From positions 1-34,446 of the forward strand of contig JARNMJ010000049.1 in assembly GCA_029432795.1 (NCBI GenBank): 34,446 bases of DNA. The letters are read 5' to 3'. Within the stretch, counting starts at the first letter, position 1, and every line of letters starts with the position of its first letter. A program made the translations under genes and the position numbers. Below, piece by piece: positions 1,903-32,353 of the stretch. The notes beneath the pieces were generated by a model. The model had not been told where the DNA came from. It saw only the letters and a program-made list of their open reading frames with translations, and made no database searches. The DNA is from Pontiellaceae bacterium B12219. Its GTDB lineage: Bacteria > Verrucomicrobiota > Kiritimatiellia > Kiritimatiellales > Pontiellaceae.

Positions 1903-1934
1903 TATGCTCTCCTTCATTTCCGATTTACCAAAAA

Positions 1935-4316: not shown

Positions 4317-4333
4317 CATTCTCCTTCTTAAAG

Positions 4334-6220: not shown

Positions 6221-6297
6221 TTTCATACCTTTTTCCACCTTACTATTGCGCAGACTCGAGCACATCAGCGCATCAGAATCCTATCTACAAAACATAC

Positions 6298-8150: not shown

Positions 8151-8164
8151 TATACATTCTCCAA

Positions 8165-10378: not shown

Positions 10379-10404
10379 GCATATACTCCTGAATGACAAC
10401 AGCG

Positions 10405-11787
10405 TTACTTGAGGTTTTCGCGCTCAGCCGAAAACACATCCCCTTCAGGCTTAGCCGGCAGGGTTTGCTGCCAGTTTTCCAGCAGTTGGATCAGCTGTTT
10501 CACCGTTTCCGGCTGTTGCTCTTTCAGATCCGTTTTTTCATACGGGTCGTTGGAAATATCGTAGAGTTCGACATAACTGAGGTCTTCGTTGGTCACCAGT
10601 TTCCAGGTCTGATCCACGACCGCATAAGAGGCCCAATGATCGGGTTTGCTGTCCCGCGCCGGCCATTTGGACGGATATTTCCAATAGAGCGGTTTTTGAC
10701 GGGCGGCCGCCGGCTGCCCCTCCAGCACAGCAACCACGCTGATTCCATCCGGCTCATAGCCCTCCGGCATTTCCACGCCGGCTACGTCGCAGAAGGTGGG
10801 CAGCAGGTCGACGGCGGAAATGAGCGAAACTTCATCCACTTTTCCAGCCGGTACTTTTCCGGGCCAACGGACAATGAACGGCACGCCGATTCCGCCTTCG
10901 AAGAGAGAAGCTTTATATCCTTTTCGTCCACCCGTTATTCCTTTGGAGGCGCCTCGGCCAAAACCGGCTCCCGTCGCGGGATCGTAAGAAAGCGTAAGTT
11001 CATCACTGGCACCGGCGGGTCCATTATCCGAGCTGAAAACGACCAGCGTGTTTTCGGTCAGCCCAAGACGGTCCAGCGCGTCGAGCAGTTCACCCACCCG
11101 GTCATCGGCGTGCGACAGGATAGCAGCGTAAATCTGGTCGCCCTCATCTTCCAATCCCTGGAAACGCCAGCGGTATTCCGGAAGCACATGATGCGGCGTA
11201 TGCGGTTCATGCATCCAGACATTAATATAAAACGGTTTATCCTCACGTTGGCTTTTCTCCATGAACGCAATGGCGTTCATGGAATCTTCAAACCACGGCA
11301 TCTGTGAACCGGAGCAGTTGAACGCCCCATAGTGGTCGTAGCCATATTCACCCGGTGCGGGCGAGTCGGTAATCATTTCATTGGACAGATGCCACTTTCC
11401 ATAATGCGCGGTAGTATATCCACCCTCTTTCAGCATGCGAGGCAGATACGGCGCATCCAGCGAAAGCCAGTCGGGCATGTTCCGCCGCGCATTACTTTCA
11501 ACCGTGGCAAAGTGGCCGTCGACATTATGCCGCCCGGGAAAATGGCCGGTCATGACGGCGGTGCGGCTCGGCGAGCAGACCGGACTGGCGACCGTGAAAC
11601 GCTGAAAATCCATCCCCTCTTCCGCCAAGCGGTCAATGTTGGGGGTCTTCACATACGGATGTCCATGACAGCTCAGATCGCCCCAGCCCCAGTCATCCGC
11701 AAAGATGAAAAGAATATTGGGCTGCTCCGCGGCCTGCACGGCCGCAGCACATAAGACAGACGCTGCAATTATCATTTTTTTAATCAT
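10405..11787 (-). CDS. S1-family sulfatase, exported
   Basis: Predicted periplasmic or secreted sulfatase. A short signal peptide (MIKKMIIAASVLCAAAVQA) precedes PNILFIFADDWGWGDLSCHGHP (metal-binding Asp pair at 31-32). The canonical activation motif CSPSR (Cys71, Arg75) is followed by TAVMTGHFPGRHNVDGH. HYGKWHLSNEM supplies the conserved active-site Lys/His segment, and VVFSSDNGPAGA the late metal-binding Asp-Asn. Length 460 aa is typical for compact S1 members. GGAG lies seven bases before the ATG. It sits between the GH95 fucosidase gene (15 nt upstream) and a beta-helix gene (26 nt downstream), suggesting sulfate removal coupled to fucose release. The exact sulfate ester is unknown. Confidence 0.92.
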   Translation of the reverse strand: MIKKMIIAASVLCAAAVQAAEQPNILFIFADDWGWGDLSCHGHPYVKTPNIDRLAEEGMDFQRFTVASPVCSPSRTAVMTGHFPGRHNVDGHFATVESNARRNMPDWLSLDAPYLPRMLKEGGYTTAHYGKWHLSNEMITDSPAPGEYGYDHYGAFNCSGSQMPWFEDSMNAIAFMEKSQREDKPFYINVWMHEPHTPHHVLPEYRWRFQGLEDEGDQIYAAILSHADDRVGELLDALDRLGLTENTLVVFSSDNGPAGASDELTLSYDPATGAGFGRGASKGITGGRKGYKASLFEGGIGVPFIVRWPGKVPAGKVDEVSLISAVDLLPTFCDVAGVEMPEGYEPDGISVVAVLEGQPAAARQKPLYWKYPSKWPARDSKPDHWASYAVVDQTWKLVTNEDLSYVELYDISNDPYEKTDLKEQQPETVKQLIQLLENWQQTLPAKPEGDVFSAERENLK

Positions 11788-11802
11788 CGTTTTTCTCCTG
11801 AT

Positions 11803-14247: not shown

Positions 14248-14288
14248 AAATACATTCTCCTTAAAACACGGTTCATCAATCCATGGAT

Positions 14289-17069: not shown

Positions 17070-17082
17070 CACATGTCCCTGC

Positions 17083-18180
17083 TTAATATCGATCCACAAA
17101 AAACTGAATCGTCTGCTCAATAATCTCCTCCCGCGACGGCGAAACGGTTCCATCGACGGGTCTCCAGTTGTGACCGGCATTTTTAACGATCACGATTTCC
17201 ACGGGAGCATCAATGGTCTTGAGCACCTCCTGCATACGGGTGGCGTGATGCACCGGAATGGTGGTGTCTTTATCGCCCTGCAGCATCAGCAGCGGCGGGC
17301 TCTCTTTCGTCAGATAAACAACCGGACTCATCTCGCGGAAGCGTTCCTCTTCATCGCCCTTATCCTTGCCCATGATTCTTCCGTGAAACCGGGTGCTTCC
17401 GTTAAACAGTTCCGGATCCTGGAAGTCGCAGGGACCATACCACGAAACGCCGGCCACCGTCTTATAGCTGTATTTTGCAAGTTCGGGATCCCCCTTCAGG
17501 CTCCCATCCTGAGGGGCCAGCAGAACCATCTGCGCCAGATGCCCGCCGGCCGAATCACCGAAGGTGTAGATCCGGTCCGGATCAATCCCGAGCTCCTTCG
17601 AATAGGCCGAAATGAACCGGAGCGCATCCATGGAATCAATCACACAATCGCGCATCGTCACCCCGTTCGCGGCCAGACGATAATCGACCGACAGCACACA
17701 GAATCCCTTTTTCAAAAGTTCCTTATGTACCCCTTTGAAGGAATTCATCCCGGCCCCTTCTTTACTGCCGGCCGCCCAGCCACCGCCATGGGTATAGATG
17801 ACGACCGGCTTTTTGGAACTGCTGTCTTTATCCGGAAAATAAAAATCAAAGAAAACAGGACCCTGAGGAGACTGCTTAAAAATGACATTCAGCCACTTTT
17901 CACCGGGACTGTCGATATAGGTAACCGGCATCTGCTTCAGCTCTTCCAATTCCAGGAAGCCATCTTTATCGGCATCATACCGCGCCATTTTTTTCCAGCT
18001 GCGCTCATTTTCAGACGGTTCAATTTTTCCGTCGTTGTTCTTATCCGAACGTGCAAGCGTCACTTGAGCCTTAACTCCGGTATAAACCTCTGTTGAATCT
18101 TTCAACGGTTCAAGGGCCTGAGCATTCAGCAAAGCCGACAGGGTTATACACAGCACAGTTTCCGATTTTAAATATTTCAT
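17083..18180 (-). CDS. EF-hand / alpha-beta-hydrolase esterase, exported
   Basis: Predicted secreted carboxylesterase of the HSL/BD-FAE-like group, perhaps removing acyl substituents. After a signal peptide (MKYLKSETVLCITLSALLNAQA) come two canonical EF-hand loops (46-57, DKNNDGKIEPSE; 69-80, DADKDGFLELEE) that should bind calcium. The hydrolase domain follows: HGGGW oxyanion motif (131-135), nucleophile Ser210 in GDSAGG, Asp303 or Asp305 in QGDKDTTIP and His337 in NAGHNW. The complete triad argues for an active enzyme. AGGTG lies about six bases before the ATG. The stop is only 13 nt before the GH28-sulfatase start, so the two genes are cotranscribed. A 65-nt gap separates it from the preceding gene and contains a small GAATC/GATTC hairpin. 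An exact substrate cannot be assigned. Confidence 0.85.
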   Translation of the reverse strand: MKYLKSETVLCITLSALLNAQALEPLKDSTEVYTGVKAQVTLARSDKNNDGKIEPSENERSWKKMARYDADKDGFLELEELKQMPVTYIDSPGEKWLNVIFKQSPQGPVFFDFYFPDKDSSSKKPVVIYTHGGGWAAGSKEGAGMNSFKGVHKELLKKGFCVLSVDYRLAANGVTMRDCVIDSMDALRFISAYSKELGIDPDRIYTFGDSAGGHLAQMVLLAPQDGSLKGDPELAKYSYKTVAGVSWYGPCDFQDPELFNGSTRFHGRIMGKDKGDEEERFREMSPVVYLTKESPPLLMLQGDKDTTIPVHHATRMQEVLKTIDAPVEIVIVKNAGHNWRPVDGTVSPSREEIIEQTIQFFVDRY

Positions 18181-18245
18181 AATACACCTGCTTTCATCTA
18201 TCCATTCACCGAATCACTGCGATTCATTACGGATGACACATAAAT

Positions 18246-20573
18246 TTATTCGCCTTTGGTTTTTCCGGAAAGATGCCGGTTGGACGCCAAAACATAGACC
18301 GGCCCGAGGGTGATATACTGCACCTTCAGATCTGCCTCATCGGACCCGTTCCCGGATGCCGTGGTGAAGGTGTTCTTCCCCGGGTTAACGACGAACGCCT
18401 GGGTTGTTGCCGGGAGGCTGCGAAGCACATTCCAGTTTCTGTCAAAAACGGTCGCCGTTTTACCCCCCTCAAATTTCATATACTCCGTGGGCAGAATCTC
18501 CCCCTTCACCATCAGGCGGCCTTTACCGTTCACTGTGATCAACGGATTCTTCAGCGCCGCGGAGTCGTCCTTGACATAGAGCATCACCTGCGGTTCCTGC
18601 GCCTCGTACGGATTCTCCAGCTCCATCGTCGTACCGGCCCTGATCGCCTGCCAGCGGGCCTGCGCGCCCCACTCCTGATCCAGGATAATGAGTTCGTCCT
18701 CTCCCGATGTCCGGCCCATGATGTAATGCGGTGTAAAAATATAGTTTCCGCTGCCGTCTCTGCTGAGCACGGCGGAAACGGGACCGGTGTGATGATTGCC
18801 GCGTCCGGTCATGAAGGTCCGCAGATAGTCCGCATCCGCCTCGTCAAACACAGGGGCCAACTCGTTCCAGTATCCGAAAAGTTCAAGACAATGATCGGTC
18901 AATCCATAGGTCTTCAACAGCTCCAGCGAAAGCTGCCCGCCGCTTTGTCCTCCACAAAAGAACAGCCGACGGCTGCCGCGCAGAATTCCGTTTGCAATAT
19001 CGAAGTGGATTTCCAGCTCACTCGTCGCGCTCTCCGTATGCTTTCGCCCCTTCTGATAAAGGCGCGGCCCGATGCGCAGAATCCAGTAATTCAGTATGCC
19101 CTCGATTTCCTTCGCTTTGCTGAACTTCATTTCAAAATGAGCAGGGAGCCCACCGCCGCCGACCACACTTCCAGTGGTTGGATGATCCACCCGGCTGTAG
19201 ACCTGATCGGTAAATTCACGGACATACCACGGCGGTTCATGCATCCGGCCCGTGCCGTCAAAGTGCAGGTGCGACACATTCACCTCGTTGAGGAAGTCTC
19301 CATAGTCGTTGCAGATTTCCTCGCCCAGACTGTCGGGCAGTCCGAAATCCTCTTCGAAATTAAAGGACCGATTGCTTTCAACCAGCGCACTCAATTCGGT
19401 TCCGGCCCGATGGGCTTTCGCGGTCGTACCCTTGCTGCCGCGCTCGCAATCCTCCAGCATCCACACCTCATCCTCGCGCTTCACAGAACCGACTTTGATC
19501 ACCTCATGACCGAGGCGGATATATTCCGGCTCCTTCATTTTGACGATGGGGTCCGGACCAAGCCGGAACGGGATGGTCGAAGCGGTTTCATCAACGGACT
19601 TAGCCAGCGTGCCGGAACACCAGCACATCAGGCGCGGATCAACGAAGGAAGACGAAAGGTATTTTTTGTCCCTGATCTGGGGAGAGAGGCTCTTCAACTG
19701 CAGCTGAATCCCCCGGTCTTCCAGATAACGGCTGTAGGCGATCAGATCCGCCTTGCCGCCCGGGAAGACGTCTGTTCGTGGAGTCGTCATACCCGACTCC
19801 CGCCAGCTGCTGGAGAACATATAAACACGATTCGCACCGCAGGGAATCACGTATTTTTCCGTCATTTCGTAGAGATTTTCCGCCGATCCGTCGGGATCCA
19901 CGCTCACCACGGCAATGCTTTTGAATTTGTCCGCCCAGCGATCCACCCAGGCAAGTACATCGGCTTCCGTCCAGGATTCAACAGCCGGCTTCACCATGTG
20001 CCCCGCCGCAGCCTGGGCCGACCAGATTTCAGCCAACACCGCATCGCGGTCGTCGCCGGACAGCCGGTTGTCGAAAAGCACCACACTGCCGCGCGATCCA
20101 TCACTGCGGGGCCGCGCCCATAGATAAGGCCAGGTCAGCACGGTGTTTTTGTTTTTTCTTACAGAACCTCTGGCGTTCATCAAATCATTCAAGGTGTACA
20201 CGGCAATATCTTCAGAATCAATCTGCAGGCTCAGGCTGTAATCCAGGCCGTCCCCAACCCCTTTAACATCGAGCAGATGAATCACGGCATGTCGGGGATA
20301 GGTATCAATCTGAAAGACAACGCCGAATGTTTTTTCGGAATCATAAACCCTGATTTTATTCCCGGTCTCAGAAATCTTATCCAGGCGGGTCTCGCCCTTC
20401 GGATGGCGAAGTATAAAACCGGTTGATCCCGTATCCGAAAAATCAGCACCGCCCAAAACCAGACGATCCATTTCTCCTGAGGCGTTAAAGCTGAGCTCCG
20501 ATTCGGCATACGACGAAACGGCCGTCAGGAGTCCGGCCAAACAAAGCACCCCGCACCGAACCCGATGTTTCAT
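18246..20573 (-). CDS. Large secreted protein of unknown family, possibly a glycoside hydrolase
   Basis: Not recognised. The 775-aa product has a signal peptide (MKHRVRCGVLCLAGLLTAVSSYA) and an N-terminal beta-rich part (residues ~25-170). The central region alternates hydrophobic strands and helices like a barrel (RVYMFSSSWRESGM, VSHLHFDGTGRMHEPPWY, LRGSRRLFFCGGQ). A C-terminal beta domain (VMLYVKDDSAALKNPLITVNGKG) follows. Conserved-looking acidic and aromatic clusters, such as HFDGTGRMHEPPWY, suggest a sugar-binding active site, but no known motif is clear. The start is between ATG 20591, which overlaps the upstream TGA as ATGA, and ATG 20573, with AGAGG nine bases upstream and a cleaner signal peptide; the latter is chosen. 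Its place between a putative glycoside hydrolase and an esterase in a tight operon points to polysaccharide breakdown. Confidence 0.6.
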   Translation of the reverse strand: MKHRVRCGVLCLAGLLTAVSSYAESELSFNASGEMDRLVLGGADFSDTGSTGFILRHPKGETRLDKISETGNKIRVYDSEKTFGVVFQIDTYPRHAVIHLLDVKGVGDGLDYSLSLQIDSEDIAVYTLNDLMNARGSVRKNKNTVLTWPYLWARPRSDGSRGSVVLFDNRLSGDDRDAVLAEIWSAQAAAGHMVKPAVESWTEADVLAWVDRWADKFKSIAVVSVDPDGSAENLYEMTEKYVIPCGANRVYMFSSSWRESGMTTPRTDVFPGGKADLIAYSRYLEDRGIQLQLKSLSPQIRDKKYLSSSFVDPRLMCWCSGTLAKSVDETASTIPFRLGPDPIVKMKEPEYIRLGHEVIKVGSVKREDEVWMLEDCERGSKGTTAKAHRAGTELSALVESNRSFNFEEDFGLPDSLGEEICNDYGDFLNEVNVSHLHFDGTGRMHEPPWYVREFTDQVYSRVDHPTTGSVVGGGGLPAHFEMKFSKAKEIEGILNYWILRIGPRLYQKGRKHTESATSELEIHFDIANGILRGSRRLFFCGGQSGGQLSLELLKTYGLTDHCLELFGYWNELAPVFDEADADYLRTFMTGRGNHHTGPVSAVLSRDGSGNYIFTPHYIMGRTSGEDELIILDQEWGAQARWQAIRAGTTMELENPYEAQEPQVMLYVKDDSAALKNPLITVNGKGRLMVKGEILPTEYMKFEGGKTATVFDRNWNVLRSLPATTQAFVVNPGKNTFTTASGNGSDEADLKVQYITLGPVYVLASNRHLSGKTKGE

Positions 20574-20587
20574 GTGATTATACCTCT

Positions 20588-21703
20588 TCATTTCCAATCG
20601 ATTTCGGCGGTCCAGGTTTCGAGATCCACAAAGACGGAGGCATGGGCGAATTCGCGCCGGTATTGCCAGTCCCTGCGTTGGAAATCACCCTTAGGCGGAC
20701 CGAGCGGTTTATCAAATTCCGGGTACCATACAAAGGTGCCGGTATCATCGCCCTGATAGCCCCAGGTATAGCAGAAATAGGAATAAGGCTCGGCGATCAG
20801 GAGATAACAGGCCAGCGGAAACGTGATGGATTCGCGGGCCATTTTCGTCCGCTCCTCCTTCGGCTTATTCATCATCTCTTTGTCCCGCCAGTCAAACTCC
20901 GGCCAGGCTTTAACCGCCAGAATTTTCCCCGATTTGGCCACGGTGTGAAGCATCTCGATATCCTCCGCAAGTTTCTCTTTTTTCCCGGGCTTCGCGGTCA
21001 CAAAATGCTCCTTCATCGCGCCGTCGGTCACCTTGAGCATGCGGGCGCCAATATCATCCGGATCGAGGTTAATGCCGTTCTGAATGAGGATTTTTGAAGG
21101 CCCAATTTTTCGGCGCGTATCCTTTACCATGGCAAGCATACCGTCATTAAGCGCATCACACTTTTCCTGGCCACATGCTTTAATTCGCCCGTTAGTACTG
21201 TATTTACCAATGGCATCAATAAAGACGCCATCTGCACCGCATTTCTCTACGGCAAATTCAGCCGTATCGGCCCACCACGTCTGCACGTTCCTTTGCGACA
21301 GATCACTGAAAGGGCTGCTGAAAATGGTCATCGGCTCTCCCGCCAGATTCACCAACTCTCCGCCCTCTGGAAAGTTCTCATTAAGCTTATACCCCCCGAT
21401 CTTTATGCAGGAATTCCAGTAGAACAGCACCGTCGCCTGCGGATTGCGTTTCTTAATCTCCTTTACTGCAATCGCAAACCCCTGTTCGGTACTGCCGTAT
21501 TTCCGTTTGCCATGGCCTTTTTCAATCGTAATAAAATCAAAATGCTCCGCCAGAAAGTCATGCTGTTCATCCGAAAATCCGTTGGACATGTTGGCAAGAT
21601 GGGCATAAAGCGGAACCGTATCCCAACTGAAGGGTACATTATATTCTGTTGCACACAGCGCCGTGAGCGGAAGTGCCAGAGAGAGTGCGAGTAATTTTTT
21701 CAT
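20588..21703 (-). CDS. Putative glycoside hydrolase (GHL15/GH168-like barrel), exported
   Basis: Predicted secreted TIM-barrel glycoside hydrolase. A signal peptide (MKKLLALSLALPLTALC) precedes a domain of about 350 residues that aligns by eye with residues 25-325 of the 2047-aa protein at 26210-32353. Shared blocks are ITIEKGHG/LTLEKIHG, GVFIDAIGK/GTYVDAIGK (Asp163 here), DGAMKEHF/DGFMREDI (Glu232 here) and DKPLGPPKG/HKPLGPPKG. The conserved Asp and Glu are the best catalytic candidates. Domains of this kind are annotated as hypothetical glycosyl hydrolases. The fucanase family GH168 is the specific family I would test, given the fucosidases next door. No strong ribosome-binding site is visible, so translation may depend on coupling to the GH28 gene ending 14 nt upstream. 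Confidence 0.65.
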   Translation of the reverse strand: MKKLLALSLALPLTALCATEYNVPFSWDTVPLYAHLANMSNGFSDEQHDFLAEHFDFITIEKGHGKRKYGSTEQGFAIAVKEIKKRNPQATVLFYWNSCIKIGGYKLNENFPEGGELVNLAGEPMTIFSSPFSDLSQRNVQTWWADTAEFAVEKCGADGVFIDAIGKYSTNGRIKACGQEKCDALNDGMLAMVKDTRRKIGPSKILIQNGINLDPDDIGARMLKVTDGAMKEHFVTAKPGKKEKLAEDIEMLHTVAKSGKILAVKAWPEFDWRDKEMMNKPKEERTKMARESITFPLACYLLIAEPYSYFCYTWGYQGDDTGTFVWYPEFDKPLGPPKGDFQRRDWQYRREFAHASVFVDLETWTAEIDWK

Positions 21704-21717
21704 TCGGCAAAGCCCCG

Positions 21718-23151
21718 TTATTTCGTTTCTTTAAATCCGGTCACATCGTCCAATACGATCCGTTCCCGGGCATCGGGTTCACGCACACTCAGGTCCACAT
21801 TTCTGAATTCCACATTTTTTGCGTGGCGGACATACGCACCCCACGCGGGCAGGATGCCGAAGAAATACTGCTCCGGGTAGCGCGTTTCATCCTCAACCAC
21901 TTCGCGTTTCGCGTCTTCTTCGGTTCCGTTTCCGGGATAGGAAACCTTGAAATTTTCCAGCACAACATCTTCCACGTAATGACCGGGAATACCACTGATC
22001 ATAATAGGGCCGGCCGTTGCAAATTCCCGATCGGCTTTTGTCTTTTCGCGCGGCTGTATTGTGACATTCGCCACGACATCGCTGATGTGTATGCCCTTGA
22101 CGGACCCGACCGAAGCACCTTCGGATTCATTCGGATTCAGCAGCGCCGTTCCGGTGTAGGTATTTTCCCCATACACCCTGCCCCGGTTGCCCAGACGGAT
22201 GAAAAGCGGCGACCCGACGTTATCCATCACAATGCGCGAAATGTTCACATTTTCCATGCGACCGCCGTCCACAATCTGCAGTTTAATGCCCCCCATCGGG
22301 CAGTCATAAAAATAGCAGTTTGAAACATCGATATCGATGAAGCCTCCGCTCGATGACGTGCCGAACTTCAGCGCCGCGGTATGGGAGCTCACAATGCAGT
22401 CGCGCACCACAATATTCCGGCACGGATACTTTGAACTCTTCAGGCAGATCGAGTCGTCGCCCGCCATGATGTCGCAGTTTTCAATCAATACGTTTTCACA
22501 TCCGTCGATATCAAATCCGTCATTGTTGGAATGGTTATCCTGCATGCGGACCGTCACACCGGAGATATGCACATCTTTACACTCGACGAGGTGAATGCCC
22601 CAGAAGGCCGGGTTCCTGTAGGTCAGTCCGGAAAACGTCACGTTTTGGCAGTTCTCGAAACGAATCAGTCTGGGCCGATTGTCTTTGCCGCCGGGCCCCG
22701 CCTTCTTCGGAAAAAACTCCGGCTTTCCGCGCCCGTCAATTTCGCCCAACCCTTCGAGGCGGATATTGACCGCGTCCTCCGCATAAAGAAAGCATTCGGA
22801 ATTTCCCTCGCGCGACGGCCGCAGGTTTTCAATGGGATAATCCGCGTGATTCTGGCTGCCCAGAATGTAGGCCTCATGATCCAGCGAAAGCGTCACATTG
22901 CTTTTCAACCATAACGTACCGGAAACATATTTACCGGCGGGCACACGGACCGTTCCTCCGCCGGCCTGTGTGCAGGCATCAATCGCCGCCTGCAGCGCTT
23001 TCGTATTCAGCGTCTCTCCATCACCCACCGCCCCGAATTCCCTGACATTATAAACCGACTCAGCTTTCTCTGCCACAGCCCTCGTGCTGCAAGCCGACAG
23101 CAGCACCATCCCGCAGACTACACGTAACCAAATCCAATTTTTCTTGCTCAT
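21718..23151 (-). CDS. GH28-like glycoside hydrolase, lipoprotein
   Basis: Predicted polygalacturonase/rhamnogalacturonase-type beta-helix enzyme, probably membrane anchored. The frame is open from 23205, but ATG 23151 has AAGGAA about seven bases upstream and starts MSKKNWIWLRVVCGMVLLSAC, a lipoprotein signal with lipobox LSAC (Cys21). The mature part begins VYNVREFGAVGDGETLNTKALQ, the standard pectate-lyase/GH28 opening. It then shows NNDGFDIDGC, AGDDSICLKSS and SSHTAALKFGTSS at the catalytic positions, with the same departures from classic GHG/RIK motifs as its paralogue in the fusion at 14289-17069. It is the first gene of the nine-gene operon, about 155 nt downstream of the predicted transcription start. 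GH28 normally attacks galacturonan; here a uronic-acid- or rhamnose-containing linkage in an algal polysaccharide is possible but unproven. Confidence 0.85.
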   Translation of the reverse strand: MSKKNWIWLRVVCGMVLLSACSTRAVAEKAESVYNVREFGAVGDGETLNTKALQAAIDACTQAGGGTVRVPAGKYVSGTLWLKSNVTLSLDHEAYILGSQNHADYPIENLRPSREGNSECFLYAEDAVNIRLEGLGEIDGRGKPEFFPKKAGPGGKDNRPRLIRFENCQNVTFSGLTYRNPAFWGIHLVECKDVHISGVTVRMQDNHSNNDGFDIDGCENVLIENCDIMAGDDSICLKSSKYPCRNIVVRDCIVSSHTAALKFGTSSSGGFIDIDVSNCYFYDCPMGGIKLQIVDGGRMENVNISRIVMDNVGSPLFIRLGNRGRVYGENTYTGTALLNPNESEGASVGSVKGIHISDVVANVTIQPREKTKADREFATAGPIMISGIPGHYVEDVVLENFKVSYPGNGTEEDAKREVVEDETRYPEQYFFGILPAWGAYVRHAKNVEFRNVDLSVREPDARERIVLDDVTGFKETK

Positions 23152-23225
23152 GTTCGATTTCCTTTTATTCATATAGCCCATCCCGTTGTGACTGGAGTTA
23201 CCCAAACTCTTACGATGCTACCCCC

Positions 23226-23312: not shown

Positions 23313-23360
23313 AATTTACCCTACACAGTCATCCAATGGTATCCTCATATTAGGGGATAC
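23313..23360 (-). promoter_or_regulatory. Promoter and 18-bp operator of the nine-gene catabolic operon
   Basis: ATCCTCATATTAGGGGAT at 23341-23358, extended by GT and AC to a 22-bp imperfect palindrome (23339-23360), shares its outer 13 bases with the site at 6325-6342. On the minus strand a -10-like TAAATT (23313-23318) lies 22 nt beyond it, against 21 nt to TATTAT at the other site. No good -35 is seen. Because the kinase gene starts 53 nt away on the plus strand, the same site could also autoregulate the two-component genes. Confidence 0.5.
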
Positions 23361-23412
23361 ACTTGTTTCACGGGAAAAAAGGAACGCGCATCATCAAGTG
23401 ATATAGAAACGC

Positions 23413-25425
23413 ATGAAACCACTTCTCAACATCTTAACGGCGGCGGCTCTGGCCGGCATTCTGCCGCCCTCCCTCCTGTCGGCTGAACCGGAACCCGCAT
23501 CCTTAACCTCTTTAGAAAACCGGTTAAAAGAAATTGATTCAGAGCTCAAGACGCTGGCGCACCTCAGCCTGCGCAGCGGGGTCGGTGCCATAGGTTTCCG
23601 CTCCAAAATCTACAAAGACCCCGATCATACCGAATCGGTTCAGGTGGAACTCAACGGTGAAATTCCGATTGATAAAATCGTACTGGTACCAACGGTCTGG
23701 CGCCATGTCGAAGAGGGATTCATCGGGGATGCCTTTCCCTCGGAATTTCGGGTTATTGCCGGATCTGAAGGGAATACAAACGGCACGGTGATCGCTTCGT
23801 ATGCAGCAGCTGACAGTAACTATCCCGGCATTGCACCGCATATCATTGCATGTACAAATCAAACCGCATCCTGGGTTCGGATCGAAGCCACAAAGCTTGC
23901 TTCCAGATACCATGACGGACGGTACCTTTTCCAACTGTCGGAAATCATGATTTTCAGCGATTCAAAAAACGAAGCCCTTCACCGGCCGGTAACCACCTCA
24001 TCCCCGGCACACCCGAGATCCATCAGCTGGAATCCCCGACATCTGACCGATGGATTTACACCTTATCTGATGAACGGGGCTCACGGTGATAAGAGCCTCC
24101 CCTTCATCACCAGTCCCAAAGATATCCACCCCCCCGTTCTTTCCATCGATCTGGGAGAAACCTATACACTGACGCGTATCCACCTACACGCTGTTGATCA
24201 AAGCGACACCGTTCCTCAGTCCACAGCTGGCGACCTCGCCATACCACGCAGCATGACCGTGGAAGGAGCCAACCGACCTGACTTTTCAGATGCCGTAGAG
24301 CTGCTGCAGTTCCAGGGACTCACCATCTATGCAACGGGACCGATCATGATGTGGAACCTCACAGAAACGCCCTGCCGATACGTGAGATTCATCATACACG
24401 AACCCTTTCAGCACCATGACCACCCTTATGCGGACAAAAGAGTCGGGTTTGCAGAAATCGAACTTTTTTCCAATGACCGGAACGTGGCTGCCGGAAAACC
24501 ATTTGACATCAACCTTACCGTTAACAGAGAAGAACGCCTGTTTACGGCACTCACGGACCAGCGGAATCTTTATGGAAACATACTGCCGATTCGCACCTGG
24601 ATGGAGCAGCTCGCCCGGCGGCGCGACCTTGAGATTGAACGCCCTTTCGTTATGGCGGATCTGACTCACCGTTATGCACGGCAGAAAGCAATGCTCCGCC
24701 GAATGAGCTGGATCATCAGTATCCTGACCGCCGGAACCGTGATTATTATCCTCATCGATAAAATGGCCCGCAACCGCGCCATTTTACGCACCCGGAAACG
24801 TATCGCCGCCAACCTGCACGATGAACTCGGAGCAAATCTCCATGCCATCGGCCTGCTGGGCGATCATGCCATAGATCAGGTCGAAGCCGTTACCCCCCGC
24901 GAAGAACTATCCGAACTCGTGGAAACGCTGAACGAAATGCGCTCCTTCACCGAGCTGGCCGGCGCTGCTACGCGCTATTGCGTCAATATGCTGGAATGCC
25001 CCGGTCTTTATGAAAACCTCCCGGAGGAAATGCAGCGAATTGCATCACGCTTACTGGTTGATATTCACCACAGTGCCTCATTCGTAGACACGTCCATGCT
25101 CGGCACACTGAAAAAACGCGCCTGCATCGACCTCTATCTTTTCTATAAGGAGTGCCTCACCAACATCCTCCGTCACGCCAGTGCAACCGAGGTTTCCACC
25201 ACGTTCCAGATATTGGAAAATATGCTCCAATTAACCGTTATAGATAACGGTTGCGGATTGGATGCCGCACTGAATCCCGCCATTCCTAAAGCACTCAAAC
25301 GGCGGGCCCGCCTGCTTCGGGCACATCTTTCCTTCGAATCAACTCCAGAGGGGGGAACAACCATCCGTCTCACCTGCCCTCTCCGAAAAATAAGAGCCAT
25401 AAGAAAAAGGAACCCTCATGCCTAG
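23413..25425 (+). CDS. Sensor histidine kinase with two extracytoplasmic discoidin-like domains
   Basis: Membrane sensor kinase of the NarX/DesK (HisKA_3) class. Domain order: signal sequence (1-24); a first jelly-roll region (~50-183); a second, clearer F5/8 type C (discoidin, CBM32-like) domain (~186-353, with LSIDLGETYTLTRIHLHAV and CRYVRFIIHEPF...VGFAEIELFS); a helical stretch; one transmembrane helix (432-450); then the kinase. The phosphoacceptor His469 lies in RIAANLHDELGANLH, Asn584 in KECLTNILRHAS and the ATP-lid DNGCGLD at 611-617. Discoidin folds commonly bind sugars, so direct sensing of an oligosaccharide released by the neighbouring enzymes is a reasonable inference. No clear ribosome-binding site precedes the ATG. 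The stop overlaps the regulator start by 8 bp. It is divergent from the nine-gene operon, sharing its control region. Confidence 0.88.
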   Translation: MKPLLNILTAAALAGILPPSLLSAEPEPASLTSLENRLKEIDSELKTLAHLSLRSGVGAIGFRSKIYKDPDHTESVQVELNGEIPIDKIVLVPTVWRHVEEGFIGDAFPSEFRVIAGSEGNTNGTVIASYAAADSNYPGIAPHIIACTNQTASWVRIEATKLASRYHDGRYLFQLSEIMIFSDSKNEALHRPVTTSSPAHPRSISWNPRHLTDGFTPYLMNGAHGDKSLPFITSPKDIHPPVLSIDLGETYTLTRIHLHAVDQSDTVPQSTAGDLAIPRSMTVEGANRPDFSDAVELLQFQGLTIYATGPIMMWNLTETPCRYVRFIIHEPFQHHDHPYADKRVGFAEIELFSNDRNVAAGKPFDINLTVNREERLFTALTDQRNLYGNILPIRTWMEQLARRRDLEIERPFVMADLTHRYARQKAMLRRMSWIISILTAGTVIIILIDKMARNRAILRTRKRIAANLHDELGANLHAIGLLGDHAIDQVEAVTPREELSELVETLNEMRSFTELAGAATRYCVNMLECPGLYENLPEEMQRIASRLLVDIHHSASFVDTSMLGTLKKRACIDLYLFYKECLTNILRHASATEVSTTFQILENMLQLTVIDNGCGLDAALNPAIPKALKRRARLLRAHLSFESTPEGGTTIRLTCPLRKIRAIRKRNPHA

Positions 25426-26089
25426 CACAATTAAAGTCATGCTGGTTGAAGACAGCAAAATATACCAGAAAGCAATCGAAAGAGCCGTACAGGGGGATCA
25501 GGAAATCGAACTGATCAGTCAGTTCGGCACCGCTGAATTTGCCTTGCGCAGCCTGCAGCAGATGTCCACCCGCAAAGAACCGGATGTGCTGCTGCTGGAC
25601 CTCAATCTGCCCGGAATGAGCGGGCTTGAAGCACTCCCCTTTTTCCAGCAGGCCCTTCCTGACGCAAAAATCATCATATTAACCCAGTCCGATAAAGAGG
25701 CGGATGTGCTCGATGCGATCAAAAAAGGCACCGACGGTTATCTGCTTAAAAAATCCACCAACAAAGAGATCATTAAAGGGATAAAAACGGTCATGGACGG
25801 CGGGGCAACCATCGACAGCAACGTGGCCCGTTTTATCCTGCAAACCATGAAACAGACGCCTCGTCGAACAAAAACTGAAACTGAAAAACTGACGAAGAAG
25901 GAGCAGGAAATCCTTACGCTGGTTGCCGAGGGGCTCGAACAGCAGGAGATTGCGACGCAGCTCCACATTTCCCGCAACACGGTGGCTACTCATATCAGGC
26001 ATATCTATAACAAACTTGAAGTGCCCAATGCACCGGCCGCCATTAACAAAGCTTATAAACTCGGACTTTTTCAACAAAATAACCGCTGA
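25418..26089 (+). CDS. NarL/LuxR-family response regulator
   Basis: DNA-binding partner of the kinase encoded just upstream. The receiver domain (1-~125) has the acidic pocket Glu11-Asp12, phosphoacceptor Asp61 in LLLDLNLPGMSG, Thr89 in IILTQSD and Lys111 in GYLLKKST. The C-terminal LuxR-type helix-turn-helix (~157-215) reads LTKKEQEILTLVAEGLEQQE and then IATQLHISRNTVATHIRHIY. The ATG overlaps the kinase stop by 8 bp and has AAAGGAA five bases upstream, so the pair is translationally linked. This family usually binds inverted repeats of about 16-20 bp as dimers, which fits the 18-bp palindromes at 6325-6342 and 23341-23358; that pairing is inferred from proximity and site architecture. Confidence 0.93.
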   Translation: MPSTIKVMLVEDSKIYQKAIERAVQGDQEIELISQFGTAEFALRSLQQMSTRKEPDVLLLDLNLPGMSGLEALPFFQQALPDAKIIILTQSDKEADVLDAIKKGTDGYLLKKSTNKEIIKGIKTVMDGGATIDSNVARFILQTMKQTPRRTKTETEKLTKKEQEILTLVAEGLEQQEIATQLHISRNTVATHIRHIYNKLEVPNAPAAINKAYKLGLFQQNNR

Positions 26090-26209: not shown

Positions 26210-29200
26210 TTAATCCTTTCTAATTTCCAGCTTGATAAACGCAGCTGGAACATCGGCCGCATAGCGGTTCGTTACCGACTCATATCCATCGACTGCAGGC
26301 CCGACCAGAATCTGATCCTGTGCATTCGTCATGAAGACAGAGCCGATCAGGTTCGTTGTATCCATCATCAGGTAAGACAAACCCTCAGCAGCATAGTCCA
26401 CCCGACGAAAATGGATGTATTCAAAATAATTGGTTCCAGCTGCGGCTGTGAGTTGGATCCAATCTCTGGAACCGGCATCTGCATTCCTCGGATTCATACC
26501 CAACGCAAACTCCGCCAGATTATTATACCCATCCCCCAGGCCATCATTTTCCGGATCCGCCTCGGAGAGCGCATCATCGCCGGTCAGACCAAAGTCTGCA
26601 ACCCAGGCGGTATAGCCATCCTGATGGGTGGCCCCGTGCAGAATCACTTTATCAAACAGGGTGGTCGAACCGCTGTTATTCCGGCCGCCATAAATATAGA
26701 GCCGGAACTCCACCGCATCCGTTATGCCCTGGAACGGCGCAGCACTCAGATCGATGATATGACCGACCCACTCGCCGACATTCGTCGTGGTGCCTGACGC
26801 AATGGCATCGGCCTCGCCAAATCCATCGATCGAAGAATAGAGCGACCATGAATTGACCGACTCGACAGCATTCTCAATCCAGACCCGGAAGGTTAAGCGG
26901 GAAAGATCCATTTCAACCCTGTCCGCCGGCTCAACCGTGAACGTCATGTACTCATTTTCTGAAAGGGCATTTGATAGATTTCCGTTTCTTGTAAACCCAA
27001 TCGTATCCCGATTCCCTCCGAAGGAAATCCCATTGGTCGTTCCGAAAATATTTCCTTCTGCATCCAGATCTTCCGCAAGACTGTTCGCGCCTGTATCCAT
27101 CACAACGTTCAAGCCAGACCCAACGCCATACGCTCCGGCCGTTATATTCGGATCGCTAAGGGTTACATTCAGGGTGGCGGTACCTGTTCCATCATCAAAG
27201 TCATACGCGGCAATAACCTCCGTGACGTGTTGAATCACCGAAATCGACACCGGGGCCGGGGCACTGTCAACCTGCCCATCGTTTACTTTGAAGGTAAAAC
27301 TGTCCGCTCCCACATAGCCGACATCCGGTGTATAGCTCAAATTTGGAGCCGTTCCGCTCAGACTTCCATGAGCAGGAGCTGACAACACCTCGTAGTTCAG
27401 GCTATCGCCATCCGCATCCGTTCCGCTCAGCAGAAGGACCGTCGATTCTCCCTGGCGGGCGATGATCGTCTGCGCGGCAGCTTCCGGTGCATCATTGACG
27501 GAGTTGACGTTAATTGACACCTCGGCAATCAGGCTGTTTTCCGCACCATCATTCACCATGTAGAAGAATTGATCCGAACCGAAATAGTCCACATCCGATG
27601 TATAGACCAGGTTTGTTGCACTTCCGCTCAAGGATCCGTTCAGTGGCTGGCTCACGACCGAATAGGTCAGGTTGCTGCCGTCCGGACTCCACCCGCTCAA
27701 GGGGATAGCAACGGATTCTTCTTCGTTGACACTCACGCTGACTTCTTCAGCAATCGGACGCTTTTTGGCCAATGCAGCAATCGCGCTTTCCGAGAGTCCA
27801 TAGTTATAGATCCGGATATCATCCAGCATGCCTTCGTAATAGCTTGCATCCACGCCGCTGCCGAAACAGGCCCGGGCAACCGTACCGGTCATCATCGTGG
27901 TATTTCCTGTACCCGAATGCCACAACACCCCGTTCAGATAAATATCCATCGTTCCGGCCATGGCATCCTTGGTGAAGACCCAGTGGTTCCATTCGCCTTC
28001 GAAGTCCGCCTCGGAGGCCGTTTTCTCAATACGATCATATCCGCTGCTATCACCGGCATCCCAGTACACCTTGGAAGATGACCAGGGCACATGAATATTC
28101 AGCAATCGGTTTCCACTCGCGTCCTGAGCCGCGAACACCGTATCATTGCGCGGTTGCAGGGCCGCATCGCCGTTCACCCACATGGCGATCGTAATCTCAT
28201 TACTCACCGAGCTGAATAGTTCAGCAGGAATGCTTACCGAATCCGAAGATACGCTTCCATTAAACTCAAGCGCACCGCCGTCGCGGTCGGTCACCCACGT
28301 GCCGCCCGACAACGTACCGTCAAACCCATTCCCTGACACATCACTCACCACCGTGCCGCTGCCATCCGACATCGGCCAGTGTGCCAGCAACGCATGGGGA
28401 TATGAAACGGGATTTTCGAGATCCTGATAATCCGATGTCGCCACCGCATTCCCATACGATACATTCATGAACCAGGCGGTGGTATTTTCAGGAAGCGCCG
28501 CCGTTGTAACATATCGACCGTCACCGTCATCGACGAGCGCCGCCGGGGTAGCCGTCCAGATTCGCTCCGACTGAAGGCCGCTATCGGTTGTTGAAATCAG
28601 CGTTGCCGAATCCAATGTTTTGGTGGATTGGAAGGTAACCGATACCCTGTTTCCTGCTGCACTTACGCTTTCCTGAACGCACCACGGCGTTCCTTCAAAG
28701 ACGATGCTGTCCGCATAGGCTTTCGCGGTCTCGCTTTCGAAGGTTGCATAGTTGTGCCCCAGACCGGGAATGGAAGAAACCATATGAACGGCCGGCGATG
28801 CGGCATAGGTTTTGGCCTGTGAGTCCAGGCCGAAATGGATATCTGACGGCCACGAATACCACAAGGTCGGCAGTGTTGCATATTGCATGCGTACCATCGG
28901 ATCCCAAATGGTCTTATAAACCTCATTATCCACTAATGCCCGACCCCAATGGTTGTCCTGATCGTACAGATGTCCGCATCCGTAAATCGGAATCGCATAG
29001 GCCAAACGATCATCAATACCGATGGTGGTCGAGGTAATGACCCCGCCCCAGGAAGCCCCCATAATTCCGACCCGGTTTTCATCCACTTCCGGTAGCGAGC
29101 GAAGCAGTGAATTCGCCAGCACAGCATCCGCTACCGCATGATACATGAATTGATCGGTAATCGGGGACACACCGCTGTCGCCATAAATACCATTCCGGCT

Positions 29201-32200
29201 GGGCCCCGCCGCTTCGTGCTTATACCAATTGCCCACATTGTTTCCGGCAGCGATATCTTCAGCGGTCGCCGTATCATCGGTCTGCCCTTCAGTGGCAATT
29301 GATATCGCGGCATACCCATAGCTGTTCCATGTTTCTACATACGAGCTGTACGCCGTTCCGCCGCCGCCATGAACAATAATAATGGCCGGAACCTGATTCG
29401 AAGAACCGGCCTCTTCAGGCAACCCTACATACGCATAAAAACGGGTCGGATTGCCCAGATAATCTTCACCATCGATAAAGACCGGCACCACCTCTCCCGG
29501 ACGGACCGCCGCAAGGGTTGATCCCGTTGCTGAAGTGTACATCGCCGGCGCGTTGGTTAAACTGCCGATCGCCGCAACGGTCTCCGAATCGCTTAGCGCA
29601 ACATCCACTTGGCCGTGAAGAATCACTTTATCAAACAGCGTCAGCGAACCGCTGTTATTCCTGCCGCCATAGATATAGAGACGAAACTCAATGGCTTCTT
29701 CCAACCCTTGGAAAGAGGAATCGGATAAATCGATCACATAGTTGACCCATTGATCGGCAACCGTGGTTTCACCGGCATCGATGGCCTGTGCAAAACCGTC
29801 CGCCGATGAATACAGGGCCCACGAATTCGCCGCCTCGGTGACACTTTCAATCCAGGCCCGGAACGTTAAGCGGGATAGATCCATCGCCGCCCCGCCCACG
29901 GGTGTAACCGTGATGGTCATGTATTCATTCGATGATATGGCCGTCGAAAGATTAGCGGATCGGATAAATCCCAAACTGTCCCGACCCCCTCCGAAAGAAA
30001 GTGGATAATCGGTTCCGAAAAACCTATTTTCCGCATCCAGGTCTTCCGCAAGACTGTTGCCGCTCGAATCGACAATCGGATTCAAACCGGCACCAACCCC
30101 GAAATGACTGGCCGTTACATGAGGATTGCTGATTGTTACGTTCGTGGTGGCCGTGCCTGATCCATCATCAAAATCATATGCAGCGATCACGTTGCTCACG
30201 TTCTCGCTCACAAAAACCGACACCATGGCCGGGGCACTGTCCTCCAGACCATCATTTACCTTAAAGGTAAAACTGTCATTCCCCAAAAAACCGGGATCAG
30301 GGATATAGGTTAGATTCGGGGCCGTTCCACTCAGCATACCGTTGACCGGATCCGTTACGACCGTGTACGCCAGGTTTTCTCCGTCAACATCTGTTCCGCT
30401 CAGAGTAACGCCAAGCGGCTCACCTGCACTAACAACGATACTCCGGGGCAACGCCTCCGGCATATCCTGAACCCCGTTTACGGTAATCGAGACCTCCGCA
30501 GCATAGCTGTTGGTCACCCCATCGTTCACGAAAAAGTAAAAGCGGTCGGATCCGAAGAAATCCGCATCCGGCGTATAGGTCAGATTCGGAACTGTTCCGC
30601 TCAGCGTGCCGTAGGCTGGTTGTGCGCCCACCGTATATGCCAGGGGGCCGGGATTGCCGTCAGCATCCGAACCGCTCAACGTGATGGCAACAGAAGCATC
30701 CTCATTCACACTGATTGAATCCGAATCCGCAACCGGGCGCGTCTCGGCCAGCACTGCAATTTCGGACGCGGAAAGCACCGTGTTATAAATTCGGACATCA
30801 TCCAACGTACCTTCGTAATAATCAGTGCCCTCGCCGCTGCCGAAACAGGCATTGGCAACCACCCCGTTCATGGGTGTGGTATTTCCGGAACCGGACTGCC
30901 ATAGCGCCCCGTTCAGATACATATTCATGGTGCCGCTGGTTGCATTCTTCGTAAAGGCCCAGTGGTTCCACTGACCTTCAAAATCCGCAGTGGACGCTGT
31001 CTTAACAATGCGGTCATACCCGCTGCTGTCCCCTGCATCCCAAATCACCTGAGAGCCAGCCGCAGGCAACTGAATGTTAAACAGAGGGTTGCCGCTCGCA
31101 TCCAAGGCCTGGAACACCGAATCATCGCGCGGTTGTTCGGTTGCGTCCCCCTTTACCCACATGGAAACCGTGATTTCATTGGTTACAGCCACAAAAATAT
31201 CAGCGGGAATATTCACCGAGTCAGCAGACGTACTTCCATTAAACTCCAGAGCACCGCCACGTTGTCCGGTTACCCATGCACCGCCCGACAAGGTCCCATC
31301 ATATCCGTTACCCGACACATCGCTCACCGCCGTGCCGCTTCCGTCCTCCATCGTCCAGTGGGCAACCGGCGCCTGATGCCAGGTGATGATGGAATTGGTG
31401 TTTTCCAGATCCAGCCACACATCGGCATATTCAAAGGAGCGTTCATAGATCCAGTCACTGACGCGCACCCCCTTTCCTTTGGGCGGACCCAGCGGTTTGT
31501 GGTACTCCTCGCAATGCCACAACACATCGGCCCACCTTGCGGAATTATTGCTGAGGTCGGGAGCCAATGGGAAATATCTAAAAAAGCTTTTTTCATGAGC
31601 GACAACAAGGAACGCAGATAAGGCATATCTATAGTCCGCATTAAAACTGTTAAAAAACATGTGCTTATCGTTCGAAATCACCATGTATGCATTAAGATTA
31701 TCACGTATTTCACCAGGCGTTTCTTTTACAATGTCTTCTCGCATAAACCCGTCACAATGGTCGATCAAACCTCCGGGGTGCCCGTTCATAATCGTCAAAC
31801 CATCCAGTTGGCTCAGGGTCTTTTTAAACTCAGGTATCCACTCTGAATGACCGTGGGTATCAATTTTGCCAATTGCGTCAACGTAGGTCCCCACAACATT
31901 ACTGTCATTGACCACATCATCAGAAATGGAGGCCCAGAATTCCCGTCCCGCTGCAGTACCCATATTGTAAGCAAATGGATCCATTCCCCCATCCGGAACA
32001 AACAGATCAGGATAACTGGCTCGGTCCATATCATAAATGGCCGTGTATCTTTGCCATGCATAAAAGGCCTGCAGATAAAGCAAGACCTTGGTGTTCTGTA
32101 ATAAATCAGCGGTTGCGATTGTGGACTGGTCCAGGTTTCCCCCGGAAAACACATCGGCCCCATGTATCTTTTCAAGGGTAAGATAAGCGATATTCTCATC

Positions 32201-32353
32201 GATATATGCTAACTGCGCTGCTGAAAACATATCCCTGTCCTGTCCATGACCATAGCGTCTGATTTTGGACCAATCACCTTCCCAGACCGGCTCCGCCCAC
32301 ACCGCAACGGTAGAAATTGCGGCTAGCAGACTGAAATATACGAACCTCTTCAT
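26210..32353 (-). CDS. 2047-aa secreted multidomain protein: glycoside hydrolase-like, esterase, duplicated LamG/Ig-like modules
   Basis: Domains in order: signal peptide (MKRFVYFSLLAAISTVAVWA); glycoside hydrolase-like domain (~25-325; Asp159 in GTYVDAIGK, Glu206 in DGFMREDI), homologous to the protein at 20588-21703; module copy 1 (~329-914) made of a LamG domain, two cadherin/Ig-like repeats and a jelly-roll ending FDKVILHG; an alpha/beta-hydrolase esterase (~920-1312; VHGGGG, nucleophile Ser1101 in GASWGG, Asp1171, His1200); module copy 2 (~1321-1907) of the same order; and a C-terminal part opening with a calcium-loop-like DPENDGLGDGYNNLAEFALG. It is therefore a two-enzyme chain with large spacer/adhesion modules, probably acting outside the cell on an acylated polysaccharide. 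AAGGGA precedes the ATG by about eight bases. It lies downstream of a broken gene on the same strand, so its promoter is uncertain. Confidence 0.85.
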   Translation of the reverse strand: MKRFVYFSLLAAISTVAVWAEPVWEGDWSKIRRYGHGQDRDMFSAAQLAYIDENIAYLTLEKIHGADVFSGGNLDQSTIATADLLQNTKVLLYLQAFYAWQRYTAIYDMDRASYPDLFVPDGGMDPFAYNMGTAAGREFWASISDDVVNDSNVVGTYVDAIGKIDTHGHSEWIPEFKKTLSQLDGLTIMNGHPGGLIDHCDGFMREDIVKETPGEIRDNLNAYMVISNDKHMFFNSFNADYRYALSAFLVVAHEKSFFRYFPLAPDLSNNSARWADVLWHCEEYHKPLGPPKGKGVRVSDWIYERSFEYADVWLDLENTNSIITWHQAPVAHWTMEDGSGTAVSDVSGNGYDGTLSGGAWVTGQRGGALEFNGSTSADSVNIPADIFVAVTNEITVSMWVKGDATEQPRDDSVFQALDASGNPLFNIQLPAAGSQVIWDAGDSSGYDRIVKTASTADFEGQWNHWAFTKNATSGTMNMYLNGALWQSGSGNTTPMNGVVANACFGSGEGTDYYEGTLDDVRIYNTVLSASEIAVLAETRPVADSDSISVNEDASVAITLSGSDADGNPGPLAYTVGAQPAYGTLSGTVPNLTYTPDADFFGSDRFYFFVNDGVTNSYAAEVSITVNGVQDMPEALPRSIVVSAGEPLGVTLSGTDVDGENLAYTVVTDPVNGMLSGTAPNLTYIPDPGFLGNDSFTFKVNDGLEDSAPAMVSVFVSENVSNVIAAYDFDDGSGTATTNVTISNPHVTASHFGVGAGLNPIVDSSGNSLAEDLDAENRFFGTDYPLSFGGGRDSLGFIRSANLSTAISSNEYMTITVTPVGGAAMDLSRLTFRAWIESVTEAANSWALYSSADGFAQAIDAGETTVADQWVNYVIDLSDSSFQGLEEAIEFRLYIYGGRNNSGSLTLFDKVILHGQVDVALSDSETVAAIGSLTNAPAMYTSATGSTLAAVRPGEVVPVFIDGEDYLGNPTRFYAYVGLPEEAGSSNQVPAIIIVHGGGGTAYSSYVETWNSYGYAAISIATEGQTDDTATAEDIAAGNNVGNWYKHEAAGPSRNGIYGDSGVSPITDQFMYHAVADAVLANSLLRSLPEVDENRVGIMGASWGGVITSTTIGIDDRLAYAIPIYGCGHLYDQDNHWGRALVDNEVYKTIWDPMVRMQYATLPTLWYSWPSDIHFGLDSQAKTYAASPAVHMVSSIPGLGHNYATFESETAKAYADSIVFEGTPWCVQESVSAAGNRVSVTFQSTKTLDSATLISTTDSGLQSERIWTATPAALVDDGDGRYVTTAALPENTTAWFMNVSYGNAVATSDYQDLENPVSYPHALLAHWPMSDGSGTVVSDVSGNGFDGTLSGGTWVTDRDGGALEFNGSVSSDSVSIPAELFSSVSNEITIAMWVNGDAALQPRNDTVFAAQDASGNRLLNIHVPWSSSKVYWDAGDSSGYDRIEKTASEADFEGEWNHWVFTKDAMAGTMDIYLNGVLWHSGTGNTTMMTGTVARACFGSGVDASYYEGMLDDIRIYNYGLSESAIAALAKKRPIAEEVSVSVNEEESVAIPLSGWSPDGSNLTYSVVSQPLNGSLSGSATNLVYTSDVDYFGSDQFFYMVNDGAENSLIAEVSINVNSVNDAPEAAAQTIIARQGESTVLLLSGTDADGDSLNYEVLSAPAHGSLSGTAPNLSYTPDVGYVGADSFTFKVNDGQVDSAPAPVSISVIQHVTEVIAAYDFDDGTGTATLNVTLSDPNITAGAYGVGSGLNVVMDTGANSLAEDLDAEGNIFGTTNGISFGGNRDTIGFTRNGNLSNALSENEYMTFTVEPADRVEMDLSRLTFRVWIENAVESVNSWSLYSSIDGFGEADAIASGTTTNVGEWVGHIIDLSAAPFQGITDAVEFRLYIYGGRNNSGSTTLFDKVILHGATHQDGYTAWVADFGLTGDDALSEADPENDGLGDGYNNLAEFALGMNPRNADAGSRDWIQLTAAAGTNYFEYIHFRRVDYAAEGLSYLMMDTTNLIGSVFMTNAQDQILVGPAVDGYESVTNRYAADVPAAFIKLEIRKD
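26633..28393 (-). repeat. Internal duplication, module copy 2 of the 2047-aa protein
   Basis: Encodes residues ~1321-1907 and repeats the order LamG, Ig-like, Ig-like, jelly-roll of 29612-31369. Near-identical blocks include LLAHWPMSDGSG / PVAHWTMEDGSG and EFRLYIYGGRNNSGS. At DNA level, short identical runs (ccgctgccgaaacaggc in both) show the copies share recent ancestry. Confidence 0.85.
29612..31369 (-). repeat. Internal duplication, module copy 1 of the 2047-aa protein
   Basis: Encodes residues ~329-914. It is the partner of 26633-28393, with the esterase domain sitting exactly between the two copies. Total length is nearly the same (about 586 and 587 residues), so few insertions or deletions have occurred since duplication. 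Confidence 0.85.

Follow-up and report, generated by a model that had tools for sequence, protein, structure and literature searches.

How do bacteria whose sets of sulfatases and glycoside hydrolases (GHs) rank among the largest known, as in the Verrucomicrobiota, Kiritimatiellota and Planctomycetota, choose which of these genes to express? Little was found on this point in the literature searched; Pontiella has about 500 sulfatases (PMC7356697). The present analysis concerns a contig of Pontiellaceae bacterium B12219 (JARNMJ010000049.1 of assembly GCA_029432795.1, positions 1 to 34,446; this whole stretch of 34,446 nucleotides is called the window), on which a histidine kinase gene and the gene of a NarL-type response regulator lie back to back with a 12-gene polysaccharide array. 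A sequence-only reading of the window had taken the pair for a two-component system that senses polysaccharides through discoidin domains. According to our analysis, it is quite likely a self-contained two-component switch with its own operator for the surrounding array. The genome encodes 15 such sensor/regulator pairs, which are probably local on-switches for particular, largely seaweed-type, sugars, since the sensors are paired with a regulator, sit backwards in polysaccharide clusters and usually have a shared site. We also lean towards regarding them as an undescribed family of glycan switches of Verrucomicrobiota, Kiritimatiellota and Planctomycetota that combines a twin-discoidin kinase with a NarL-type regulator, lies antisense in polysaccharide arrays and uses a palindromic operator diverging with the regulators.

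Orientation of the cassette and its operator-like palindrome

The 15 kinases of this 4.75-Mb genome are the window copy and 14 full-length paralogues (38–51% identity; 43–47% for the discoidin domains and 53–56% for the kinase domains). Paralogous regulators (48–61% identity) immediately adjoin the kinases, the exception being the kinase of contig C4, which lies at the contig edge. This kinase and the regulator of contig C5 could plausibly be one pair split by the assembly, although no overlap joins the two contig ends; the C5 sulfatase shares the strand of the C5 regulator and may be an exception to the arrangement described below.

On gene maps drawn with a simple longest-open-reading-frame (ORF) rule, a sulfatase is found within 10 kb of 10 of the 15 kinases; for the genome's remaining HATPase proteins, the figure is 1 of 43 (Fisher p 6e-7). 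Within 15 kb of the kinases, 37 of 37 sulfatases are on the strand opposite the kinase, and so are 118 neighbouring genes of at least 200 aa, versus 8 on the same strand. Independent named loci give opposite:same ratios of 115:18 in Pontiellaceae/Kiritimatiellota, 142:36 in the Opitutia type and 40:23 (a weak bias) in Planctomycetes; of the remaining gene pairs in these loci, 27% are opposite. Since the neighbours are predominantly opposite the kinase, the kinase-regulator cassette sits backwards in a co-directional array. Among the five own copies that have no sulfatase within 15 kb, four lie beside GH115, GH43(-CBM6), GHL15 and GDSL/BD-FAE esterase genes; the remaining one adjoins LamG/PKD proteins. 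These five loci are of polysaccharide type as well, so that the setting is not confined to sulfated glycans. The link to carbohydrate loci drawn by the sequence-only reading therefore stands, such kinases not being found mainly elsewhere.

A palindrome of consensus yATCCc-nnnTTTnn-gGGATr is located between the kinase and the polysaccharide operon, with further copies before other operons of the same loci. Palindrome searches in single kinase upstream regions gave nothing individually significant, and only a shared motif model did. An expectation-maximization (EM) palindrome search over 28 upstream regions from Pontiellaceae/Kiritimatiellota reached a log-likelihood of 128 versus 45–56 in six dinucleotide-shuffled sets; the same element emerged from an unconstrained model of these regions (159 versus 71–80 in shuffles) and from an independent de novo run on 34 Opitutia-type regions, several of them close copies (190 versus 43–49). 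Operator density was measured on chosen stretches around kinases and on control stretches. In a leave-one-out scan of 297 kb around kinases, all 20 strong matches were intergenic (9.5% expected), and 11 of them lay away from kinase promoters, before other array genes. By comparison, 220 kb of the same genome without polysaccharide genes had one intergenic and two coding matches, and 160 kb of sulfatase-rich, kinase-free DNA had five intergenic and one coding. Three of these five follow the L008 system on contig C218 and resemble its variant: these are strong sites downstream of L008 in L157 (G000:C218:100501-120500), and more sites lie near 91.2, 97.9 and 99.5 kb. Taken together, the L008 and L157 sites suggest one regulon with six operators over about 23 kb. 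Within the window, the two palindromes (at 23338 and 6322) occupy exactly the only two gaps of more than 70 bp in the minus-strand array, and their core TATCCTCAnnnTnGGGGAT has two exact matches genome-wide, both in the window.

The variants of this element bear on whether the 15 regulators, instead of being separate local switches, could cross-talk as one network through a common operator. A single consensus does fit all copies, some extra sites match the variant of another locus better (sites of the L010 locus resemble the L006 variant), and sulfatase-rich stretches without a kinase also contain sites. However, operator variants track kinase orthology, as operators of orthologous kinases agree at 19.3 of 24 positions versus 12.9 of 24 for other pairs (p 2.5e-5), with immediate flanks that are less conserved in most, not all, orthologue pairs. 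Exact matches to the window variant are also confined to its own locus, and the regulators differ at recognition-helix positions following a conserved TV; the matching residues of NarL (K188, V189, K192) contact DNA. We consider a single network rather doubtful. Because the regulators vary at the recognition helix and operator variants follow kinase lineage, the copies probably cross-talk only in part: lineage-bound operators are supported, strict insulation of the copies is not. This raises a testable question, that of a regulator-operator coevolution keeping 15 paralogous switches apart in one cell.

Fold and probable ligand of the sensor

The sensor region was modelled with AlphaFold2 from an alignment of 74 sensor regions (mean predicted local distance difference test score, pLDDT, 91.6; predicted template modelling score, pTM, 0.90). 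In this model, both extracytoplasmic domains are discoidin domains with a CBM32-like fold. The first (residues 59–182) superimposes on the chitosan-binding module 4zz5 (Z 11.4, root-mean-square deviation, rmsd, 1.6 over 100 aligned residues) and, with Z of 10–11, on several further CBM32 structures. The second (residues 227–354) aligns with the CBM32 structure 4lks (Z 9.8, rmsd 2.5, 111 aligned). The top Foldseek matches are the tandem CBM32 pair of Clostridium perfringens ZmpB, fucosidases and a fucolectin. The fold assignment rests on the model, because a sequence search of solved structures with the sensor gave only matches at E 0.6–1 (neuropilin, CBM32). With Pfam, F5_F8_type_C is matched at residues 69–161 (E 2e-5, just under the curated cut-off) and F5_F8_type_C_2 in the second domain at E 0.015; among the homologous sensor regions, 63 of 74 and 58 of 74, respectively, match these families at E<=0.01. 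The second jelly-roll domain proposed by the sequence-only reading, faint by sequence, is thus likewise discoidin in the model, and the comparison with CBM32-type modules which that reading had called for came out positive for both domains. After domain 2, the conserved NVAxGK...LTDGxNxYG motif (24481-24600) could be taken for the beginning of a third discoidin domain passing directly into the juxtamembrane helix.

The proposed anatomy of the kinase, with one membrane helix and a HisKA_3 kinase, and the extent of the pair (23413-26089) proved correct. Besides an N-terminal signal peptide, a single strong hydrophobic segment is found (about residues 430–452). HATPase_c is matched above the Pfam cut-off (residues 574–658, E 6.9e-7) and HisKA_3 just under it (residues 461–508, E 1e-3); the phospho-histidine H469, N584, DNGxG and GG are kept in 19 of 19 aligned kinase copies. 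The model of the full-length kinase (pLDDT 87.3, pTM 0.67) has a helix (393–492) that runs unbroken from the sensor through the membrane to the dimerisation and histidine phosphotransfer (DHp) domain, with no HAMP or PAS between sensor and DHp, which suggests direct mechanical coupling without HAMP.

Many discoidin domains bind something other than a sugar, and the ligand might accordingly be an envelope state, a protein, a lipid or a metal. The best Foldseek matches also include neuropilin and coagulation-factor domains, and some kinase copies lie away from sulfatases. The top VIA-align matches, on the other hand, are carbohydrate-binding modules (for chitosan and galactose), and the copies lie within carbohydrate-degradation arrays in several bacterial groups, which makes a non-sugar ligand unlikely.

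Proposed model of the switch and points that weigh on it

Taken as a whole, the operation of a glycan-sensing switch could be pictured as follows. Oligosaccharides released from the target glycan would probably be bound, outside the cytoplasm, by the two CBM32-like domains. The signal would pass down one rigid helix, as modelled, through the membrane into the phosphotransfer domain, and H469 would hand the phosphate to D61 of the NarL-type regulator made from the same transcript, as the conserved motifs imply. A dimer of this regulator would then bind the 20–24-bp palindrome, a site recognised by its sequence, before the divergent operon and before a second operon, and would switch the degradation genes on, which is likelier than off. 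The 15 copies, old and diverged, would probably correspond to one switch per glycan type. In this picture, the ligand, the binding to DNA and the direction of regulation are inferences.

Instead of being bound by the regulator, the palindrome might act in RNA, as a hairpin of the polysaccharide or kinase transcript that serves as attenuator, terminator or leader element. A terminator-like scan does match precisely the palindrome on the plus strand, and its arms covary between copies, as RNA pairing would also predict. Against this, the non-Watson-Crick pairs have no G-U excess on either strand (18 versus 18), orthologues conserve letters beyond what pairing alone requires, C6, T13, T14 and G19 are invariant in 31 of 31 sites, the distance to the start codon ranges from about 20 to 300 bp, and there is no Rfam match within the window. 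An RNA element is improbable in our opinion. In favour of an operator, the centre has the same polarity relative to the operon in 28 of the 31 sites, where its T-rich strand is that of the kinase; the palindromic model by which these sites were picked contributes to their symmetry. A genome with about 90 sulfatase genes in 4.7 Mb might place any gene near one of them, and just 23 of the 91 sulfatase matches come within 10 kb of a kinase. Even so, it is very improbable that the kinases are mere hitch-hikers regulating something else, given the rarity of sulfatases near other HATPase proteins, the strand arrangement, and operators that precede neighbouring operons and are rare in control DNA.

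Several observations nevertheless weigh against this model. In Akkermansiaceae-type loci, the neighbours are mostly on the same strand as the kinase (38 opposite, 66 same), and the small set of 11 upstream regions gave only a different, weaker palindrome (50 versus about 37 in shuffles); the likewise small Planctomycete set (n=6) gave no motif above shuffles, and neither set is large enough to rule a motif out. The own copies L004, L011 and L013 do not have a good site at the kinase promoter, and no operator was found in 22 kb around L047 of Pontiellaceae B1224, the orthologue nearest to the window kinase (68% identity). The resemblance of extra sites within a locus to the site of their own kinase exceeds that of other sites by little (p 0.04, an effect due to two loci), and strictly locus-specific operators were not retained as a general rule. 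Finally, relatives with 60–140 sulfatase candidates have no copy of the kinase, and a relative with about 500 has three or four.

Spread of the family, known systems and neighbouring features

A scan of contigs of 85,000 species found no match with a single kinase protein as query; with a family alignment, it found hundreds of relatives; Pontiellaceae, Opitutia, Akkermansiaceae/Verrucomicrobiaceae and Rhodopirellula/Aporhodopirellula account for nearly all of the best 78. Two kinases labelled Actinomycetota and Gammaproteobacteria (L095, L103) are identical in the tree to Opitutia ones, their contigs being probably mis-binned. The family is patchy, as it is present in 20 of 288 genomes of the phylum at E<=1e-30, and several close copies occur in only 5 of 25 genomes of the same genus (15, 14, 14, 11 and 4 copies). 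Because the tree interleaves the own-genome copies with other families (12 label changes) and places most of them beside an orthologue from a different Pontiellaceae genome, the 15 copies are an old, maintained repertoire; a recent tandem expansion is ruled out by the same tree. A scaling of kinase number with sulfatase number was rejected, the counts not being proportional. Two broader suggestions of the sequence-only reading consequently fail: the strategy is not distinct to this lineage, for it spans both Verrucomicrobiota/Kiritimatiellota and Planctomycetota, patchily in each, and sensing tied to sulfatases does not hold in general, as copy number fails to track sulfatase number and a third of the own copies (5/15) have no sulfatase close by. 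A distant kinase relative (L016, G000:C230:5926-7683) with two in-frame stops, next to a regulator of 35% identity, is probably a decaying copy.

Compared with NarX/NarL-type systems, the pair has the same kinase and regulator domains and motifs and the same adjacency of genes; among NCBIfam models, the regulator is closest to NarL/MctR and the kinase to UhpB/NarX, both far below the cut-offs. It differs by a sensor in which two discoidin domains take the place of a nitrate-type or other small periplasmic domain, by the lack of HAMP, PAS or GAF in the kinase and by its antisense placement within polysaccharide arrays. Hybrid two-component systems (HTCS) of Bacteroides similarly turn on one polysaccharide locus through a membrane sensor and have many paralogues per genome (PMC10766802). 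In the window, by contrast, the proteins are separate (670 and 223 aa), the helix-turn-helix (HTH) is of NarL type and not of AraC type, and the host belongs to the Planctomycetes-Verrucomicrobia-Chlamydiae (PVC) bacteria; neither a beta-propeller match nor a single-chain kinase-receiver-AraC HTH was found in the pair. The difference from hybrid and SusR systems of Bacteroidetes that had been claimed from the sequence is therefore upheld. If our interpretation is true, this family would be the counterpart of those hybrid systems in these phyla, whose regulons and substrates would become predictable from sequence.

The RsgI/SigI systems of Clostridium thermocellum comprise paralogous transmembrane sensors that expose carbohydrate-binding modules on the outside, and their promoter elements are paralogue-related (PMC12203970, PMC6056542). 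The idea of sensing with such modules is thus already known, since RsgI anti-sigma factors use them, and the window family shares with them several paralogous sensors of this design. The output of RsgI/SigI is, however, a sigma factor freed by proteolysis and not phosphotransfer, and the modules and phylum are different; the cytoplasmic part of the window kinase is HisKA_3/HATPase_c, and no RsgI match was found in Pfam/NCBIfam scans. Closer to the window, a one-sentence remark reports kinases (PF07730/PF02518) and regulators (PF00072) near some GHs and sulfatases of Pontiella agarivorans (PMC10880615); these genes are probably of the same kind as the window pair, although the remark gives no discoidin sensor, family, orientation rule or operator. 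The paper on the Pontiella type species does not mention such kinases (PMC7356697), and the literature search found no paper joining discoidin and histidine kinase with polysaccharide utilization or Verrucomicrobi-. The twin-discoidin embodiment, its spread and its operator thus appear not to have been described previously. A sensor family with a recognisable operator would give regulons by sequence, a testable ligand per locus and ready-made sugar-responsive switches.

Table 1. Positions of the proposed switch, its operator-like sites and the adjoining genes in the window
Feature	Position	Strand	Description and basis
Discoidin sensor histidine kinase	23413..25425	+	670 aa, ATG start; ORF, Pfam, 14 further full-length paralogues, models
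Discoidin/CBM32-like domain 1	23560..23958	+	Residues ~50-182; Pfam and model comparison
Discoidin/CBM32-like domain 2	23968..24480	+	Residues ~186-356; weak F5_F8_type_C_2 match and model comparison
Conserved juxtamembrane segment	24481..24699	+	NVAxGK..LTDGxNxYG motif, then long helix; family alignment, model
Single membrane helix	24700..24768	+	Residues ~430-452; hydropathy peak at 431, inside continuous modelled helix
HisKA_3-type dimerisation domain and HATPase_c	24775..25392	+	H469; N584, DNGCG 611-615, GG 647-648; Pfam, alignment, hydropathy/motif check, model
NarL/LuxR-type response regulator	25418..26089	+	223 aa, D61; Response_reg 2.2e-19, GerE 4.5e-18; 8-bp overlap with kinase 3' end
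Operator-like palindrome GGTATCCTCATATTAGGGGATACA	23338..23361	.	Divergent kinase/GH28 intergenic region; EM motif, leave-one-out scan
Second copy, same variant, TCTATCCTCAGTCTTGGGGATTTT	6322..6345	.	57 bp before start of gene 4334-6265 (-); motif scans
12-gene polysaccharide array	568..23205	-	Pfam and ORF map
Secreted protein, LamG/bacterial-Ig/AXE1-like	26210..32353	-	2047 aa; convergent with regulator gene; Pfam

The array (Table 1) encodes GH28, GHL15, a BD-FAE esterase, a GH28-sulfatase fusion, GH95, two sulfatases, two GH141-like beta-helix proteins, an esterase and GH29, and is likely made of two operons, from gene 21718-23205 down to 6624-8150 and from 4334-6265 down to 568-1917. The fusion (14289-17180, minus strand) joins GH28 (residues 87–378) and sulfatase (501–849) in one reading frame of 963 aa and might act as a bifunctional enzyme on a sulfated rhamno- or galacturono-glycan. 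One of the beta-helix proteins (1935-4319, minus strand) combines in an unusual pairing a GH141-like insertion domain and a C-terminal PDZ domain. The 2047-aa protein on the other side of the cassette has two LamG domains, four bacterial-Ig/cadherin repeats, an AXE1-like esterase region and a weak GHL15 match; large LamG/PKD/PEP-CTERM proteins akin to it often adjoin the kinase in other loci.

The regions upstream of the kinase contain two further sequence features. Those of the window (23206-23412) and of L047 (9600-10010) share CCATCACACAGGATrATGATTTT, a possible second regulatory element. Several own copies have TGnTATAA 10–20 bases before the kinase ATG, which hints at an extended -10 promoter and at a kinase mRNA with hardly any leader. 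At the contig edge, positions 3-437 (plus strand) encode the C-terminal end of an IS66 transposase.

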